Position numbers and translations under genes: made by a program
Notes under the pieces: model-generated
The model's database searches: none
Told to the model about the DNA's origin: nothing
What the model saw: the letters and a program-made list of their open reading frames with translations, nothing else
DNA from: Salinadaptatus halalkaliphilus
GTDB lineage: Archaea > Halobacteriota > Halobacteria > Halobacteriales > Natrialbaceae
NCBI RefSeq assembly: GCF_006543045.1
Contig: NZ_RBZW01000028.1
Coordinates: 1 to 58,638 of the forward strand
Length of the DNA stretch: 58,638 nt
Reading direction: 5' to 3'
Shown: positions 38,510 through 53,242 of the stretch, in pieces
How the letters are laid out: each line of letters starts with the position of its first letter
Numbering within the stretch: the stretch's first letter is position 1

Positions 38510-39253
38510 ATGCCATCGACGACGATCGACCCCGACACCCAGCTCGCAACGCTCGTCGAAACAGACATCGCGTTCGCCCGCGTGCTCGAGACGGTCGGGC
38601 TCGACTACTGCTGTGGTGGGAAACGGTCGCTCGAGACCGCTTGCGATGCCGCCGATCTCGAGGTCGAGGCCGTTCTCGGCCGTCTCGAGGCCGTCAAAAG
38701 CGACGAATCGGAGCGACCGCGACCGGCTGCGTCCGCCGGTGCAGCCGTCGAAACCGATCGCTCCTGGGAATCGCTCACCCAGCTCGCGAATCTGATCGTC
38801 TGGGAGCACCATCGATACCTGCGCCAGGAGTTGCCGGAGCTGGAGGCGTTGGCCGCGAAGGTCGCTCGCGTTCACGGCGATTCACACCCTGAACTTCGCG
38901 ACCTCGAGGGGGAGGTCGACGCCCTCGCCGCGGAGATGACCGACCACGTCGACGACGAGGAACATCGCGCGTTCCCGATCATCAAGCGACTGGACGCCGG
39001 CAAACCCCTCTCGAGTGCGGAGGAGGGGCGGCTCCGGCGGGAGATTCACGCCCTCGAGGACGACCACGACGAGACGGCAACCCGTCTCGAGCGACTCAGC
39101 GACCTCACCGACGGGTACGCCGTTCCCGAGGACGCCTGCGGGAGCTACCGAAGCCTATTCGAGCGCCTCGAGACGCTCGAGCAAAACACGCATCTGCACG
39201 TCCACCGCGAGAACAACGTGTTGTTCCCGAGAGCCGAGGTGTTGCTCGCCTAA
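38510..39253 (+). CDS. ric: Iron-sulfur cluster repair di-iron protein (Ric/ScdA/YtfE type)
   Basis: Protein of 247 residues. The N-terminal ScdA_N domain carries the adjacent cysteines C34-C35 (GLDYCCGGKRSLE). The C-terminal hemerythrin-like bundle supplies di-iron ligands in WEHHRYLRQELPEL, DHVDDEEHRAFP, EDDHDETA and HLHVHRENNVLFPR. Family members restore clusters damaged by nitric oxide or peroxide. It is monocistronic; samp2 follows about 100 bp later. Confidence 0.9.
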   Translation: MPSTTIDPDTQLATLVETDIAFARVLETVGLDYCCGGKRSLETACDAADLEVEAVLGRLEAVKSDESERPRPAASAGAAVETDRSWESLTQLANLIVWEHHRYLRQELPELEALAAKVARVHGDSHPELRDLEGEVDALAAEMTDHVDDEEHRAFPIIKRLDAGKPLSSAEEGRLRREIHALEDDHDETATRLERLSDLTDGYAVPEDACGSYRSLFERLETLEQNTHLHVHRENNVLFPRAEVLLA

Positions 39254-42838: not shown

Positions 42839-43279
42839 CTAATCTCCCGGGTCGAACAGGCAGAACGCGACCAGTTCCACGATCTCGCCAGCCCGCAACG
42901 GTGGCTTTTCGCCAAGCTCCATATCGACCTCCTCGCGCAAGACGAAGTTCGCTAACCGCCACACATTGTACATGATCACTCCGACGACGAAATACAGGAA
43001 GCGGAGCCGGTAATCCTTCGAGGCGCAAGTCGGCAGGAAGTGTTTCTTGATCGTCTTGTACTGGTTCTCGATCTCCCACCGCTGGTACTGCGTCGTCAAT
43101 GCCTGCGCTCGATCCGGCGACACTTCCGCGTTCGTCGTGAAGATCACGTAGTCGTCTTCCACCAGGGCCTCGTTCTCCTGCGCCGCGTCTTTTGGCACGT
43201 ACATGATACTTTGACCGCATCTAATCATAACCGACGACACTCCCGACATCGATCGCGAGAGCCCGCGCCCTCGAGGCAC
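42839..43279 (-). pseudogene. Transposase remnant, C-terminal part (IS4-like DDE)
   Basis: The translation matches the end of haloarchaeal IS4-type transposases: DRAQALTTQYQRWEIENQYK, then KKHFLPTCASKDYRLRFLYF and a hydrophobic VVGVIMYNVWRLANF. The catalytic Glu region is present, but the N-terminal two thirds with both Asp residues is missing, and the residues before YVPKDAAQENEAL look unrelated. No clear terminal repeats remain. It is inactive. Confidence 0.75.
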
Positions 43280-45145: not shown

Positions 45146-45177
45146 AGTAGTGTAACGGCTCCGGAAGCAATAGTGTT

Positions 45178-45193
45178 GCCGGTTATAACCGGC
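45178..45193. promoter_or_regulatory. Perfect 16-bp palindrome over the TATA box, copy 1
   Basis: GCCGGTTATAACCGGC lies 33 bp before the HTH_10 regulator gene. Its centre TTATAA can serve as the TATA box, so a bound regulator would block or control transcription. The same motif is present before the cupin and rhodanese genes. Confidence 0.65.
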
Positions 45194-45199
45194 TTTCGA

Positions 45200-45577
45200 T
45201 CAACCAAGAAAGGCGTCGGTGACCCATCGGGAGGAGTCGTCCGTCTCGAGCGACGCCGACGCACTGACGAGGACGAACATGCTCTCTCCGTCGCCATTAA
45301 TGATCTGGCGGGTCGATTCCGGGGGGATCCAGACTGCATCGCCAGCTTCTACCTCGACGGTCTCGTCGCCGACGACGACCGTCGCCTCACCCTTGATCAG
45401 GACGTACACTTCCTCGTGACCGTCCTCACGGTGGTCGTGTGGTTCGCTGCACCAGCCTGGCTCACACCGGACGATCGTGACCCCAACGTTCCGACACTCG
45501 AGTGGCTCCCGAAGGTGGTGCATGCCCCCTAGGACTGTCTCGACGGCATCGTAGTTCGTGTGCATGTAGTTCCCCAT
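45200..45577 (-). CDS. Cupin-domain protein
   Basis: Single beta-barrel cupin of 125 residues. Cupin motif 1 includes EPHDHREDGHEEVYVLIKGE with likely metal ligands His, His and Glu; motif 2 lies around GDAVWIPPESTRQIIN. It could be a small dioxygenase or a binding protein. ATG 45577 places the start about 42 bp from the divergent palindrome-TATA at 45613. It lies between the regulator and the sulfur-related gene and points toward the regulator. Confidence 0.87.
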   Translation of the reverse strand: MGNYMHTNYDAVETVLGGMHHLREPLECRNVGVTIVRCEPGWCSEPHDHREDGHEEVYVLIKGEATVVVGDETVEVEAGDAVWIPPESTRQIINGDGESMFVLVSASASLETDDSSRWVTDAFLG

Positions 45578-45612
45578 GTTTCCACCGTCGGTCCCCAGCG
45601 GAATATCTCGAG

Positions 45613-45630
45613 TGCCGGTTATAACTGGCA
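45613..45630. promoter_or_regulatory. Palindrome over divergent TATA box, copy 2
   Basis: TGCCGGTTATAACTGGCA differs from the copy at 45178 by one base within the core. The symmetric TTATAA is placed to serve both the minus-strand cupin (start 45577) and the plus-strand rhodanese-MBL gene (start 45667), so one site could control both. Confidence 0.65.
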
Positions 45631-45666
45631 TTGGGGATATGTCCCTACTCTCCCTACGGGATATTG

Positions 45667-46779
45667 ATGTCAGAGATTGCGCCGGAAACCGTTGCACAGC
45701 GACTCGAGGGAGGAGACGACGACTTCACGCTCGTCGACATTCGGCGGGAGGCCGACTTCGAGGAGTGGCACGTCCCGGGAAGCGAGAACGTTGACGTCTA
45801 CGAGGAACTGAAAGACGACCCCGACGCGGCAGCCGAGGTGCTCTCCGACCTGCCAGAGAACGGTGAGATCGTCACCGTCTGTGGGGCGGGCGTGCTTGCC
45901 GCCGACGCGGCGGAACTGCTCCAGGAGCAGGGATACGACGCTAAGACTCTCGAGAACGGCATGAACGGCTGGGCACGCGTCCACCGCATGGCTTCCCTCG
46001 AGGTCAACCTCGACGGGGAGTTGATCCAGGTTGCCCGCCCTGGAACGGGCTGTCTCTCTCACGTCCTGATCACCGAGGGGGAGGCCGCCATCTTCGAATC
46101 CTCCCAGTACACCGCGGAGTACGAAGCGGTCCTCGAGGAGTACGACGCCGACCTAGCAGGCGTCTTCGACACCCACGCCCACGCGGACCACGTCTCCGGT
46201 GGGAAGAACCTCGCCGAGGCCCACAGTGCACCGTACTACCTACACCCGGCCGACGACGACGGTATCGACGCGACGCACGTCGAGGACGGGGACGTTATCG
46301 AGGTCGGTGCCGTCGAGATCGAAGTGATCCACACACCCGGTCACAGTCCGGGCAGCGTCTCCTACGCCGTCGAGGAAGAGGCACTCCTGACCGGTGACAC
46401 GCTCTTTCACGACAGCGTCGGGCGCGTCGAACTCGGCGTCGATGCCGGCCTCGAGGAGACCAGCATTGAGGACAACGCCGAGACCCTCTACGAGAGCTTA
46501 GAGCGCCTGCGTGAGCGCGACGGTAACCCACTCGTGTTGCCGGCCCACGACCCCGGCTCGCCACAGCCACCTGTGGCCGCGAGTCTGAACGAGGTCAAGC
46601 AGCGCAACGAGGCGTTCGTCCAGGATCGGGAGACGCTAGTCGCGGCGCTGTCGGCCGACGTGCCTAAGCAGCCGCCGAACTTCGAGCGCATCAAGCTCAC
46701 GAACGTCGGCACCGAGGAAATCTCGGATGAAGAAGCGGACGAACTCGAACTCGGCCCGAACCGTTGTGCAGCCGAATAA
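45667..46779 (+). CDS. Rhodanese-metallo-beta-lactamase fusion (persulfide dioxygenase-like)
   Basis: Protein of 370 residues. The N-terminal rhodanese domain has its active-site Cys at C72 (VTVCGAGVLA). The C-terminal metallo-beta-lactamase domain carries HAHADH (170-175), HTPGHSPGS and TGDTLF, plus a final metal-site His in LPAHDPG. The order rhodanese then MBL is the reverse of CstB-type persulfide dioxygenases, but the MBL part resembles ETHE1/CstB. It likely handles persulfides or thiosulfate in sulfur detoxification. The MFS gene follows 3 bp later. Confidence 0.85.
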   Translation: MSEIAPETVAQRLEGGDDDFTLVDIRREADFEEWHVPGSENVDVYEELKDDPDAAAEVLSDLPENGEIVTVCGAGVLAADAAELLQEQGYDAKTLENGMNGWARVHRMASLEVNLDGELIQVARPGTGCLSHVLITEGEAAIFESSQYTAEYEAVLEEYDADLAGVFDTHAHADHVSGGKNLAEAHSAPYYLHPADDDGIDATHVEDGDVIEVGAVEIEVIHTPGHSPGSVSYAVEEEALLTGDTLFHDSVGRVELGVDAGLEETSIEDNAETLYESLERLRERDGNPLVLPAHDPGSPQPPVAASLNEVKQRNEAFVQDRETLVAALSADVPKQPPNFERIKLTNVGTEEISDEEADELELGPNRCAAE

Positions 46780-46782
46780 TCC

Positions 46783-48093
46783 ATGAGCGGCGAGTACGCA
46801 CAGGGAATTCGTCGAAACTGGCGGCAGTTCCTCCTGCAAATTCTGACGGTCTTCGCCGTCGGGCTCACGATGGGCTCCCAGCGCAACGTGGTGCCCATCA
46901 TGGGCGAGGAGACCTTCGGCGTCGAGTCGCTGCTGGTCATCGGTTCGTTCGTCGTGAGCTTCGGAATCGTCAAGGCCGTCCTCAACCTCTACTCGGGGAA
47001 ATGGGCCGACGCCTACGGCCGCAAGCCGATCCTGATCGCGGGCTGGATCGCCGCGCTCCCGATCCCCTTCATCCTCATCTTCGCGCCGTCCTGGAGTTGG
47101 ATCGCCGTCGGGAACGTCCTGCTCGGGATCAACCAGGGAGTCGCATGGAGTATGAGTATGATCTCGAAGATCGAACTTGCCGGCCCCGATCAGCGCGGGC
47201 TCGCCGCGGGGCTCGACGAGGCCTTCGGCTACACCGGCGTCGCCGCCGGCGCGTGGCTAACGGGCGTGATCGCCGCCCAGTACAGCCTCCGGCCGGAGCC
47301 GTTCTACTTCCTTGCGGCGGTGATCGTCGTCGCCTTGCTCATTGCGATCGTCCTGATCGAGGAGACCCTCCCCTACGCGAAAGCGGAAGCGGAAGGACTC
47401 GACGACGACAGTGTCGAAGCTGACGGTGGGAAAAACGAGGCTGACCTCTCGTTTACCGAGATCGTCAAGCGTGCCACATACAAGGACCGAACGCTGCTCA
47501 CGGCGGCACAGGCGGGCCACGTCGAGAACTTCGTCGACACGCTCGTCTGGATCGCTTTCCCCCTGTTCCTCGTCGCTCAGGGCTTAGACATCGCCCAGGT
47601 CGGGGTCGTCGTCGGTGTCCACAGCGCCGCGTACTTCCTGCAGGTCTACACTGGCAAGCTCGGTGATCGGGTGGGACGCAAACCCCCAATCGTCGCCGGC
47701 TTCTTTCTCGCCGGCGCGGGCATCCTCGGGATGGTACTCGTCGAGGGGTACTACCTCTGGATTCTCTTCTCGGCGCTGTCAGGCGTCGGGATGGCGCTTC
47801 ACTATCCCAACCTGATCGCGGTCGCAAGCGACGCCGCTCACCCGCTGTGGCGCTCGACCGGCCTGGGCGTCTACCGGCTCTGGCGGGACCTCGGCTACGC
47901 CGTTGGTGCCGTCCTCATCGGCCTCTCCGTCGACTTACTCTCGCTCGAGGCTGCCTTCTATGGCACCGCCATCGCGATGTTCCTCTCCGGTGGTCTAGTC
48001 GTGGTCTGGATGGAAGAGACCCACCCCGACTTCGGCACCCACGAACCGCCGGCGGTGGATCTCGAGAGAACCGAGGAGGTTACCCAGGACTGA
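46783..48093 (+). CDS. Major facilitator superfamily transporter
   Basis: Polytopic protein of 436 residues, about 12 helices. Motif A appears as GKWADAYGRKPI after helix 2 and again as GKLGDRVGRKPP in the second half. A charged central loop is present. It is only 3 bp behind the rhodanese-MBL gene, so they form one operon; export or uptake of a sulfur compound is inferred from this context only. Confidence 0.88.
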   Translation: MSGEYAQGIRRNWRQFLLQILTVFAVGLTMGSQRNVVPIMGEETFGVESLLVIGSFVVSFGIVKAVLNLYSGKWADAYGRKPILIAGWIAALPIPFILIFAPSWSWIAVGNVLLGINQGVAWSMSMISKIELAGPDQRGLAAGLDEAFGYTGVAAGAWLTGVIAAQYSLRPEPFYFLAAVIVVALLIAIVLIEETLPYAKAEAEGLDDDSVEADGGKNEADLSFTEIVKRATYKDRTLLTAAQAGHVENFVDTLVWIAFPLFLVAQGLDIAQVGVVVGVHSAAYFLQVYTGKLGDRVGRKPPIVAGFFLAGAGILGMVLVEGYYLWILFSALSGVGMALHYPNLIAVASDAAHPLWRSTGLGVYRLWRDLGYAVGAVLIGLSVDLLSLEAAFYGTAIAMFLSGGLVVVWMEETHPDFGTHEPPAVDLERTEEVTQD

Positions 48094-48967: not shown

Positions 48968-49264
48968 ATGGCCACGAGCGAACGCCCACGACTCGGGTTC
49001 GGCACGACAGTCTACACGGACGACGGCAAACCGATCGGTCAGGTTCGCGGGTTCGACGAGGACGGCGTCTACATCACGTTCCGTGATGGATTCGAGGGGA
49101 TGAGCGTCGAGCACGTCCGTTCGGGCCACGAGTTCGGCGAGGCCCACCTGATGTGGCGCTGTCTCGAGTGCGGCGAGATGGACAAGCTCGAGGACCAACT
49201 GCCCGAGACGTGTCCCTCCTGTGGCACCGACCGGGAAAACCTGTACTACTGGACCGAAGACTGA
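48968..49264 (+). CDS. Small zinc-ribbon protein (DUF7130 type)
   Basis: Protein of 98 residues. An N-terminal beta barrel-like part (VYTDDGKPIGQVRGFDEDGV) is followed by a rubredoxin-like metal knuckle pair C65-x2-C68 and C82-x2-C85 (CLECGEMD and CPSCGTDR). It is conserved in haloarchaea with unknown function. A TTTTAATAC box lies about 30 bp upstream. Confidence 0.75.
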   Translation: MATSERPRLGFGTTVYTDDGKPIGQVRGFDEDGVYITFRDGFEGMSVEHVRSGHEFGEAHLMWRCLECGEMDKLEDQLPETCPSCGTDRENLYYWTED

Positions 49265-50656: not shown

Positions 50657-53242
50657 ATGACACCGTCCCCGGTCGTCGTGTCGGCACTGATCGAAGTGGC
50701 GATCGGGATGATTGCTGCTGTTGTTGCCATCATTGCCTGGCAACACCGTCGGATACGAGCCAGTCGCCCCCTTGTTGTTATGGCGGTTGGAACCTGTCTA
50801 TACGCCCTCTCGGCTGCAGCGTCATCGTTTGTCACAGATCCGGTCTGGTGGCGGTTGGGTAACAACATCCGGTACCCACTCGGGGCAGCGATCGCAGTCG
50901 GCTCGTTTTTCGTCATGGTAGCGTTCAGCGAACGAGATCAATTACAGAACAGATGGATTCGGGCACTTCTCGCGGGCTTTGTCGTGGTCAATTTCGTCGT
51001 CGCGATGACCGATCCGCTTCACAACCAGTTCATCACCGCCCAGCAACTGGTCGATGGCGTGGTCGTCGGGACGGCCGGGCCGCTGTTCTGGGTGCATACG
51101 ATCACCTCCCTCGGAATCGTCTTCCTGGCCACCGGCCTCTGTCTCGGGACGTTTCTCACCTCGAGTGGGATCCATCGCAAACAGTCCTTGTCGATCCTCT
51201 CGGCGTTCGGTGTCGGTATCGTCGGATTCGCCTGGCAGTCGATCGCACCCGTACACCCTGCTCTCGATCTGGCAGCTGTTGGCATGCTCGGCTGGTGTGG
51301 CATCATACTGTGGGGCATCTTCGCCGCCGACTTCTTCGATATCGTTCCTGTCGGTCGGGAGCGTGTCGTCGAACGCATCGACGACCCAGTCGTCATCCTG
51401 GACGGGAACGATCGCGTCCTCGACAGCAATCCGGCTGCCCGACGACTGGCGACGTCGTCATCTGAGTGGCATGGGATGCCGGTTTCGGAGTTTTTCGAAT
51501 CCTCTCCGGAACTGGCCGACCGGGTCACCGCTAGGACGCCCGGCGAAATCACGCTCGAACAGTCCGGAACGACACGTCGGTTCGATGTAACGATTTCCCC
51601 ACTCGACACCGGCCATACGGACCCGGGAGACCGAAAGCAGCAATCAGAGTCCGCTGTCGTCATTTTACGGGATGTGACCGCCCAGTTCACCTATCAGCGT
51701 GAGCTCGAGCGGAGCCGTGAACGATATCGGTCGCTGTTCGAGAACAGCCCGCTCGTTCTGTGGGAACAGGATCTCTCGAAGACGATCGAGCGAGCACGGA
51801 CGATCGCTGCGGATACAGACGACCTTGCTGCGTACCTCGAGGAACATCCAGAACAACACCGAGAGCTAGTAGAGACCGTCGAGATACTCGACGTCAACGA
51901 GGTCGCCGTCGAGGCCTATGACGCGGAGTCGAAGAGCGAGCTCGTCGACCGAATGGGCGAGTTGTTCACCGACGAGGCGTTGGCCACGAGCAGACACATG
52001 CTCGAGGAACTGATCGATGGCGACCGACACTTCCGGGCAGAGACCACCTACCGGACACTCGACGGGGACACGAGACACGAACTCATCGAGGTGTTCGTTC
52101 CGGAACCATACGTTGCGGACTGTTCGCGGGTGCTCGTGGCTGGAGCAGATATTACGGTCCAGAAAGAACGCGAGACAGAACTCCGGTATCAGACGGCGCT
52201 GTTCGAGGCACTCAACGAGTCGACGAACGTCGGCGTTCTCGTCACCAACACCGACCGCGAAATCCTCTGGTACAACGACCGATTCCGCGAACTGTGGGGC
52301 ATTCCGGAGGAAATCCTCGCCGCCGGGAGGGATCGGGACGCCGTCGAGTACGTCCTGGACTCCCTCGCCGATCCGGATCGGTTCGTCGCGGCGACCGAGG
52401 ACCTGCACAGGCCGCCGTTCGAGCCACTGGAGATGGAACTTCGGCTACTGGATGGTCGCTGGTTCGAGCGATATACCGCTCCGGTCACCGACGACGACGG
52501 CACGCGGTACGGGCTATTGACGCTCACCCGCGATATCACCGAACGGAAGCGCTACGAGAGGCGAATCGAGTCACAAAATCGGCGGCTCGAACGACTGGCG
52601 AAGGTGATCTCGCACGATCTGAAGACACCGCTTTCGACGGCAGAAAATCACCTGAAACTACTCGAGATCGAACTGGCGGATCCAGCGGCGCCGGTCGAGC
52701 AGTCACTGAGAGACCTGGAGCGGACCCACGAGCGCCTTCGTCGGTTCACCGATCACCTGCCGCGGCTGGCCCGGGAGACGACGAACGTCCACGAGTCGAC
52801 CGACTGTTCGCTGAGACGCCTTGTAACCGATGCCTGGGAGGTCGTCGACACGGGGTCGCTGGAACTGACAGTTGCGGAGGACCGACGACTGGATGGCGAT
52901 CCCCGGCGGCTCCAGCAATTGTTCGAGAATCTCTTCTCGAACGTCGTCGAACACGCCGTTGACGGCGTTGCGCCCGCGGACACGGCGACGACGGTTCGTG
53001 TCGAGGCCCTTGATACTGGATTTGCGGTCGAAGACGATGGACCAGGTGTGAGCGCGGGCAACGAGGTCTTCGAGTACGGGATGAGTACTGGTGATGGCTC
53101 GGGCATCGGTCTCGCAATCTGCCGGAGTATCGTCGAAGCCCACGGCTGGTCGGTCAAAGCTGTCGACGGCGACGACGGCGGTGCGCGCTTCGTCGTGACG
53201 ACCGTCGAGGACATCGAACTGGACGAGACGGACTCGTCCTGA
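50657..53242 (+). CDS. Membrane histidine kinase with 7TM sensor and PAS domains
   Basis: Sensor kinase of 861 residues. Residues about 1-230 form a seven-helix 7TMR-type sensor (histidine kinase N-terminal 7TM). Three PAS-like domains follow (about 240-350, 365-520, 530-650). The HisKA helix has the phosphoacceptor His in AKVISHDLKTPLS, and the HATPase domain has LFENLFSNVVEHA, DDGPGV and GSGIGLAI. It is convergent with a response-regulator-type gene 7 bp away, which could be its partner, although convergent pairs are unusual. Confidence 0.9.
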   Translation: MTPSPVVVSALIEVAIGMIAAVVAIIAWQHRRIRASRPLVVMAVGTCLYALSAAASSFVTDPVWWRLGNNIRYPLGAAIAVGSFFVMVAFSERDQLQNRWIRALLAGFVVVNFVVAMTDPLHNQFITAQQLVDGVVVGTAGPLFWVHTITSLGIVFLATGLCLGTFLTSSGIHRKQSLSILSAFGVGIVGFAWQSIAPVHPALDLAAVGMLGWCGIILWGIFAADFFDIVPVGRERVVERIDDPVVILDGNDRVLDSNPAARRLATSSSEWHGMPVSEFFESSPELADRVTARTPGEITLEQSGTTRRFDVTISPLDTGHTDPGDRKQQSESAVVILRDVTAQFTYQRELERSRERYRSLFENSPLVLWEQDLSKTIERARTIAADTDDLAAYLEEHPEQHRELVETVEILDVNEVAVEAYDAESKSELVDRMGELFTDEALATSRHMLEELIDGDRHFRAETTYRTLDGDTRHELIEVFVPEPYVADCSRVLVAGADITVQKERETELRYQTALFEALNESTNVGVLVTNTDREILWYNDRFRELWGIPEEILAAGRDRDAVEYVLDSLADPDRFVAATEDLHRPPFEPLEMELRLLDGRWFERYTAPVTDDDGTRYGLLTLTRDITERKRYERRIESQNRRLERLAKVISHDLKTPLSTAENHLKLLEIELADPAAPVEQSLRDLERTHERLRRFTDHLPRLARETTNVHESTDCSLRRLVTDAWEVVDTGSLELTVAEDRRLDGDPRRLQQLFENLFSNVVEHAVDGVAPADTATTVRVEALDTGFAVEDDGPGVSAGNEVFEYGMSTGDGSGIGLAICRSIVEAHGWSVKAVDGDDGGARFVVTTVEDIELDETDSS

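Follow-up and report, generated by a model that had tools for sequence, protein, structure and literature searches.

A palindromic operator kept beside a cysteine-rich HTH_10 regulator at rhodanese-MBL/MFS loci of haloarchaea

The two palindromes in the S. halalkaliphilus window (the whole stretch of 58,638 nucleotides analysed here) are copies of one operator, TGCCGGNCATGNCCGGCA. Comparison across haloarchaea strongly backs the view that this palindrome is the single-locus operator of the adjacent HTH_10 regulator and that the regulon is local. The operator appears to be fixed beside the same regulator across haloarchaea, with the regulator, a rhodanese-metallo-beta-lactamase (rhodanese-MBL) sulfur enzyme and an MFS transporter apparently switched together. 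A fuller model, in which a dimer of the regulator occupies the palindrome, serves both promoters, likely by activation, and responds to a thiol-reactive signal, is considered fairly probable.

The operator and its promoters

Both palindromes reported in an earlier note on this DNA, at 45178 and 45613, are present letter for letter (Table 1). They are the only matches in the window when up to three mismatches are allowed (0.15 expected), and with up to one mismatch the same two are the only sites in the whole 4.5-Mb genome. A two-mismatch match (L003) elsewhere in this genome lies outside any called gene. A PWM built from the orthologs, with copy 1 of the window left out, scores copy 1 at 24.6, against a shuffle maximum of 12.4, and copy 2 at 26.9.

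Table 1. Coordinates of the operator copies, promoter elements and genes in the window.
Feature	Position	Strand	Remarks
Regulator, 243 aa	44414..45145	-	N-terminal HVO_A0563_N (sensor-like) and C-terminal HTH_10
TATA-like element CTATT, regulator promoter	45169..45173	-	Conserved +13..+17 offset
Operator copy 1	45178..45193		GCCGGTTATAACCGGC; 18-mer 45177-45194 = TGCCGGTTATAACCGGCT; 5' of regulator gene
Cupin, single-domain	45200..45577	-	Between both operators
TATA-like element ATAT, cupin promoter	45603..45606	-	16-19 bp from centre of operator copy 2
Operator copy 2	45613..45630		TGCCGGTTATAACTGGCA; common to divergent cupin and rhodanese-MBL/MFS promoters
TATA-like element ATAT, rhodanese-MBL/MFS promoter	45637..45640	+	Conserved offset
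TA at conserved -10 position, rhodanese-MBL/MFS promoter	45655-45656	+	Fits footprint
Rhodanese (N-terminal)-metallo-beta-lactamase (C-terminal) fusion	45667..46779	+	Persulfide-dioxygenase-like
MFS transporter	46783..48093	+	Accompanies the regulator more constantly than any other gene (86 of 88 loci)

When TGCCGGNCATGNCCGGCA was searched without mismatch in 292 haloarchaeal genomes, 53 sites were found, one per genome in 53 genomes, and the reversed pattern used as a control gave no exact match in the same 292. Intersection of the exact sites with the protein search places 52 of the 53 directly 5' of an ortholog of the regulator at a distance of 31–32 bp, a spacing that allows for alignments beginning at residue 2. 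The remaining site falls within a coding frame reading like a response regulator, with no homolog of the regulator, rhodanese-MBL or MFS protein nearby. Away from the locus, sites with one mismatch are no commoner than for the reversed control, that is, at background level, and those examined lie within coding sequences; on these grounds a wider regulon is rejected. It is this combination, nearly all exact sites at the regulator and only background elsewhere, that argues for an operator of a single locus.

In the full-length search, orthologs of the regulator are found at E <1e-80 and HTH_10 paralogs at E >1e-30. All 88 haloarchaeal ortholog loci that were read carry the palindrome, with the consensus TGCCGG(A/T/C)CATGACCGGCA beginning 47–54 bp 5' of the regulator start codon. 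The earlier proposal of a shared, local and apparently autoregulatory operator is strongly supported by this fixed site, and the genome and ortholog scan shows sites local to the regulator rather than widespread 5' of unrelated genes.

A promoter footprint was obtained by aligning 52 non-redundant ortholog loci on the palindrome. It contains three main conserved features, with little else conserved nearby. The palindrome spans -9 to +9. On the rhodanese-MBL side a conserved ATAT is located 16–19 bp from the palindrome centre, with a TA ~16 bp further on that fits a -10 element. On the regulator side there is a conserved TTAAT 13–17 bp from the centre, and here the palindrome ends 3–4 bp from the TATA-like block, overlapping the expected BRE. 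The window has flanking elements at the conserved offsets for all three of its promoters, those of the regulator, the cupin and the rhodanese-MBL gene. Within the palindrome, the central hexamer of the 52 loci is mostly ACATGA or TCATGA (core CATG), and only the central AT is invariant.

These alignments bear on the view, taken in the earlier note, that the palindromes overlie TATA boxes and that TTATAA acts as a promoter core firing in both directions. The palindrome copies in the window do contain TTATAA; however, this core is found in only 1 of 88 orthologs, CATG being the usual form, and the conserved TATA-like blocks sit outside the palindrome. A palindrome serving as a two-way TATA box, already contradicted by the comparison, is ruled out by the 52-locus footprint and can be given hardly any credence. 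On the same alignment, the core varies outside its invariant central AT, and the TTATAA of the window is one such form. As it is flanked by separate TATA-like elements, the palindrome is placed like an upstream activating site (UAS) of the Bat/GvpE type, immediately 5' of the BRE/TATA at a fixed spacing.

Locus layout and target genes

The genes named in the earlier note (HTH_10 regulator, cupin, rhodanese-MBL and MFS) are confirmed by Pfam. In the canonical layout, MFS - rhodanese-MBL - operator - regulator, the two sides are divergent and share a single palindrome within roughly 90 bp. The start codons are 88–96 bp apart, with the palindrome 31–38 bp from one and 40–44 bp from the other. Rhodanese-MBL and MFS are both found in 69 of the 88 loci and MFS alone in 17; the two loci without MFS are contig ends. 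Decayed N- or C-terminal remnants of rhodanese-MBL are readable in MFS-only loci (L042, L066, L093 and others), where the promoter, operator and MFS gene are kept, and judging from these remnants the enzyme is lost repeatedly by internal decay. Its earlier placement at the centre of the system does not hold. Since operator and MFS persist without it, the MFS transporter is the constant target.

The rhodanese-MBL protein keeps its rhodanese cysteine and MBL ligands, the conserved residues being C72, HxHxDH (170-175), H226, D244 and H294, and the MBL metal ligands H170, H172, D174, H175, H226 and D244 are conserved in 69 proteins. Among solved structures its MBL domain is closest to the MBL-rhodanese proteins 3tp9 and 3r2u, with matches to ETHE1 and BpPRF as well. 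At some loci, among them the one on pNRC100 of Halobacterium NRC-1, the surroundings form a larger sulfur cluster that also contains TauE, YeeE, TusA, DsrE and a second rhodanese-MBL.

The MFS transporter has bacterial homologs of 40–46% identity, of which eight, on bacterial plasmids, were looked at (L184-L191). Six have an MBL protein and a regulator of the ArsR type as neighbours; in the five longer cases tested this regulator is an ArsR-rhodanese fusion. The other two are located in sulfur clusters. These operons are sometimes beside arsenic, chrA, merT or soxB genes. No published description of this bacterial MFS/MBL/ArsR-rhodanese counterpart was found. The counterparts give independent support for a sulfur-related role, with the caution that some copies are near arsenic, chromate or mercury genes.

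The cupin of the window shares 59% identity with another copy in the same genome, and this type of cupin occurs in most haloarchaea surveyed. A cupin between operators was seen in no other locus surveyed, and the cupin is therefore rejected as an ancestral member. Two operators are also found in Haladaptatus halobius and H. salinisoli (L061, L062), where a stand-alone rhodanese occupies the place that the cupin has in the window. Natrialba swarupiae has two operators as well, with no recognisable gene between them. From these cases, operator duplication appears to be a way to add a gene to the regulon.

Several other genes of the window were recorded. A protein with ScdA_N and hemerythrin domains, RIC/YtfE-like (iron-centre repair), is encoded ~5 kb from the regulator (38510-39253, +), with no operator beside its gene. 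An open frame at 42839-43279 (-) reads like an IS transposase fragment and has no Pfam match. A small DUF7130 protein with a rubredoxin-like zinc ribbon is encoded 3' of the MFS gene (48968-49264, +), and a large 7TM-PAS histidine kinase at 50657-53242 (+).

The regulator and its proposed mode of action

The regulator matches both HVO_A0563_N (118.8 bits, curated cut-off 27) and HTH_10 (73.4 bits, curated cut-off 23.1). Its cysteines, C14, C36, C78, C80 and C95, are all in the N-terminal domain. In 89 haloarchaeal proteins the first four are invariant and C95 is kept in 83, giving a spacing of CX41CXCX14C (C36-C78-C80-C95). The C-x-C pair pointed out earlier and three further cysteines are conserved across haloarchaeal orthologs. 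The predicted structure (pLDDT 85) consists of two ferredoxin-like repeats and a sigma-4/LuxR-like HTH. In fold comparison the N-terminal domain resembles Ta1207 (Z 10.5), which is uninformative on the signal. Comparison of the regulator and MFS sequences with solved structures gave no useful match, and a literature search found no paper on HVO_A0563.

Eight relatives with 32–35% identity, annotated as Thaumarchaeota, Thermoplasmata or unclassified archaea, keep the cysteines at 78, 80 and 95 and have one at 32 in place of 36. HTH_10 paralogs, compared by eye, have the cysteines at 32, 78 and 95 in common and lack those at 14 and 80. As the paralogs lack C80, the C-x-C pair marks the regulator subfamily and its distant relatives. 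Several of the relatives from Nitrososphaerota ('Thaumarchaeota') carry TGCCGTCGCACGACGGCA or close 18-mer forms 54–56 bp before the start codon, just 5' of CTTATA or a similar A/T block, and in four Thaumarchaeota loci (L130-L133) two CCGTC...GACGG-type palindromes are found ~48 bp apart before the regulator gene. The neighbours of these non-haloarchaeal relatives are not rhodanese-MBL/MFS. Autoregulation through such a site therefore seems to predate the link with sulfur genes, and, as the cysteines are kept without these neighbours, the ancestral signal may differ from sulfane sulfur.

In the proposed mechanism, the palindrome would be bound by the adjacent regulator, presumably as a dimer, which from one site between back-to-back promoters would control its own gene as well as the rhodanese-MBL/MFS operon. 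The duplicated site of this strain would also bring the recruited cupin gene under control. The site is just 5' of the position where TFB would be recognised at weak TATA-like elements, and on the regulator side partly within it. Activation by recruitment of TBP/TFB, as at Bat and GvpE sites, is the most likely action given this position, the weakness of the flanking elements and the precedent set by those two regulators. On its own side the regulator could autorepress instead, and autorepression or more general repression is conceivable since the palindrome overlaps the expected BRE there. A thiol-reactive signal would likely be sensed by the N-terminal domain, in which four or five cysteines are conserved. 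This signal may be sulfane sulfur (persulfide or polysulfide), a reasonable choice in view of the gene content, or a redox or metal cue acting through a Cys-ligated centre. As output, sulfane sulfur would be oxidised or transferred, and the MFS protein would carry a sulfur compound out of or into the cell.

A regulator acting throughout as a repressor would have its dimer block TFB/TBP at both promoters until released by the signal, as is the case for the bacterial repressors SqrR, BigR and CstR. The short distance of 3–4 bp between the palindrome and the regulator-side TATA-like block, over the expected BRE, fits such blocking. However, the site is 5' of the TATA rather than on or 3' of it, the flanking TATA-like elements are weak, and the characterised haloarchaeal proteins Bat (PMC11218638) and GvpE (PMC4390858) are activators. 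Repression is considered a possible but unlikely alternative to activation.

The nature of the signal divides the readings further. Sulfane-sulfur or thiol-redox sensing is plausible by analogy with bacteria, in which the MFS and MBL proteins go together with an ArsR-rhodanese regulator, and sensing through a metal or Fe-S centre held by cysteines rivals sulfane-sulfur sensing on equal terms. With such a centre the signal would be oxygen, redox or NO and the sulfur genes would reflect a downstream need. Fe-S or metal sensing by cysteines has been proposed for the anaerobic regulators NarO and DmsR. It would suit the conserved C-x-C and further cysteines, the retention of the Cys core without sulfur genes in distant relatives and paralogs, and the location of the pNRC100 locus near trxA and a cytochrome d oxidase gene. 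Against this reading, which taken as a whole is doubtful, stand the close association of the regulator with rhodanese-MBL and MFS throughout haloarchaea and the control of the bacterial equivalent by an ArsR-rhodanese regulator. It may also be that the module confers resistance to metals or metalloids (arsenic, chromate, mercury), with the MFS protein exporting thiolated metal species. Two of the eight bacterial MFS homologs are near arsenic, chrA or merT genes, but no such genes were recognised in the closely examined haloarchaeal neighbourhoods, where the additional genes are TusA, DsrE, YeeE and TauE, and this role is improbable.

Significance and comparison with known systems

For few haloarchaeal regulators are operator, regulon and candidate signal all defined, and here comparison defines the operator to the base pair. 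It also singles out a conserved MFS transporter as the putative core output. If the signal is sulfane sulfur, a new protein family joins sulfane-sulfur sensing, and similar effector genes would be under unrelated regulators in archaea and bacteria. HTH_10 is not known as a regulator family for this signal. A tentative reading, held with less confidence than the mechanism above, is that an HTH_10-family activator senses sulfane sulfur and presides over an archaeal version of the bacterial ArsR-rhodanese module, with an operator slot entered repeatedly by new genes. As loci are known in well-studied cultured strains (Halobacterium NRC-1 on pNRC100 and Haloferax mediterranei on pHME132), these proposals can be tested at once.

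Bat, a bacterioopsin activator, gave the bacterioopsin-activator proteins their name (PMC11218638), and GvpE sites lie adjacent to the BRE in the space separating two divergent promoters, of which one drives expression of the activator (PMC4390858). The likeness to the bop regulon UAS of Bat and the gas-vesicle UAS of GvpE is a site just 5' of the BRE/TATA. The present system differs in using one short palindrome for both promoters and in having a single-locus regulon. Its regulator has a Cys-rich HVO_A0563_N domain, whereas Bat has PAS/GAF domains and GvpE a leucine-zipper-like form.

NarO and DmsR have a Cys motif containing C-x-C. Like them, the regulator here is without PAS/GAF domains; its target genes are different, and its Cys spacing is CX41CXCX14C. 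NarO and DmsR are small bacterioopsin-activator-type regulators of anaerobic respiration without PAS and GAF domains (PMC11218638), and no respiration operon was found directly beside the operator site. CGAAYATDKTYG, located at denitrification promoters of H. mediterranei and bound by an unknown regulator (PMC10062603; PMC11218638), differs from the operator motif described here.

In bacteria, the ArsR proteins SqrR, BigR, SoxR and sHdrR regulate through cysteines and are encoded next to genes for persulfide dioxygenase and rhodanese (PMC12423496). The regulator here, built of HVO_A0563_N and HTH_10, falls outside the ArsR/CsoR-type sensors (SqrR, BigR, CstR). Bacterial ArsR-rhodanese/MBL/MFS operons have the same MFS protein and a relative of the MBL enzyme; in them the rhodanese domain is fused to the regulator, whereas here it is fused to the MBL enzyme. 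That enzyme resembles the persulfide dioxygenases CstB, ETHE1 and PRF in the structure matches of its MBL domain and in its metal-ligand motif, but has the rhodanese domain ahead of the MBL domain.
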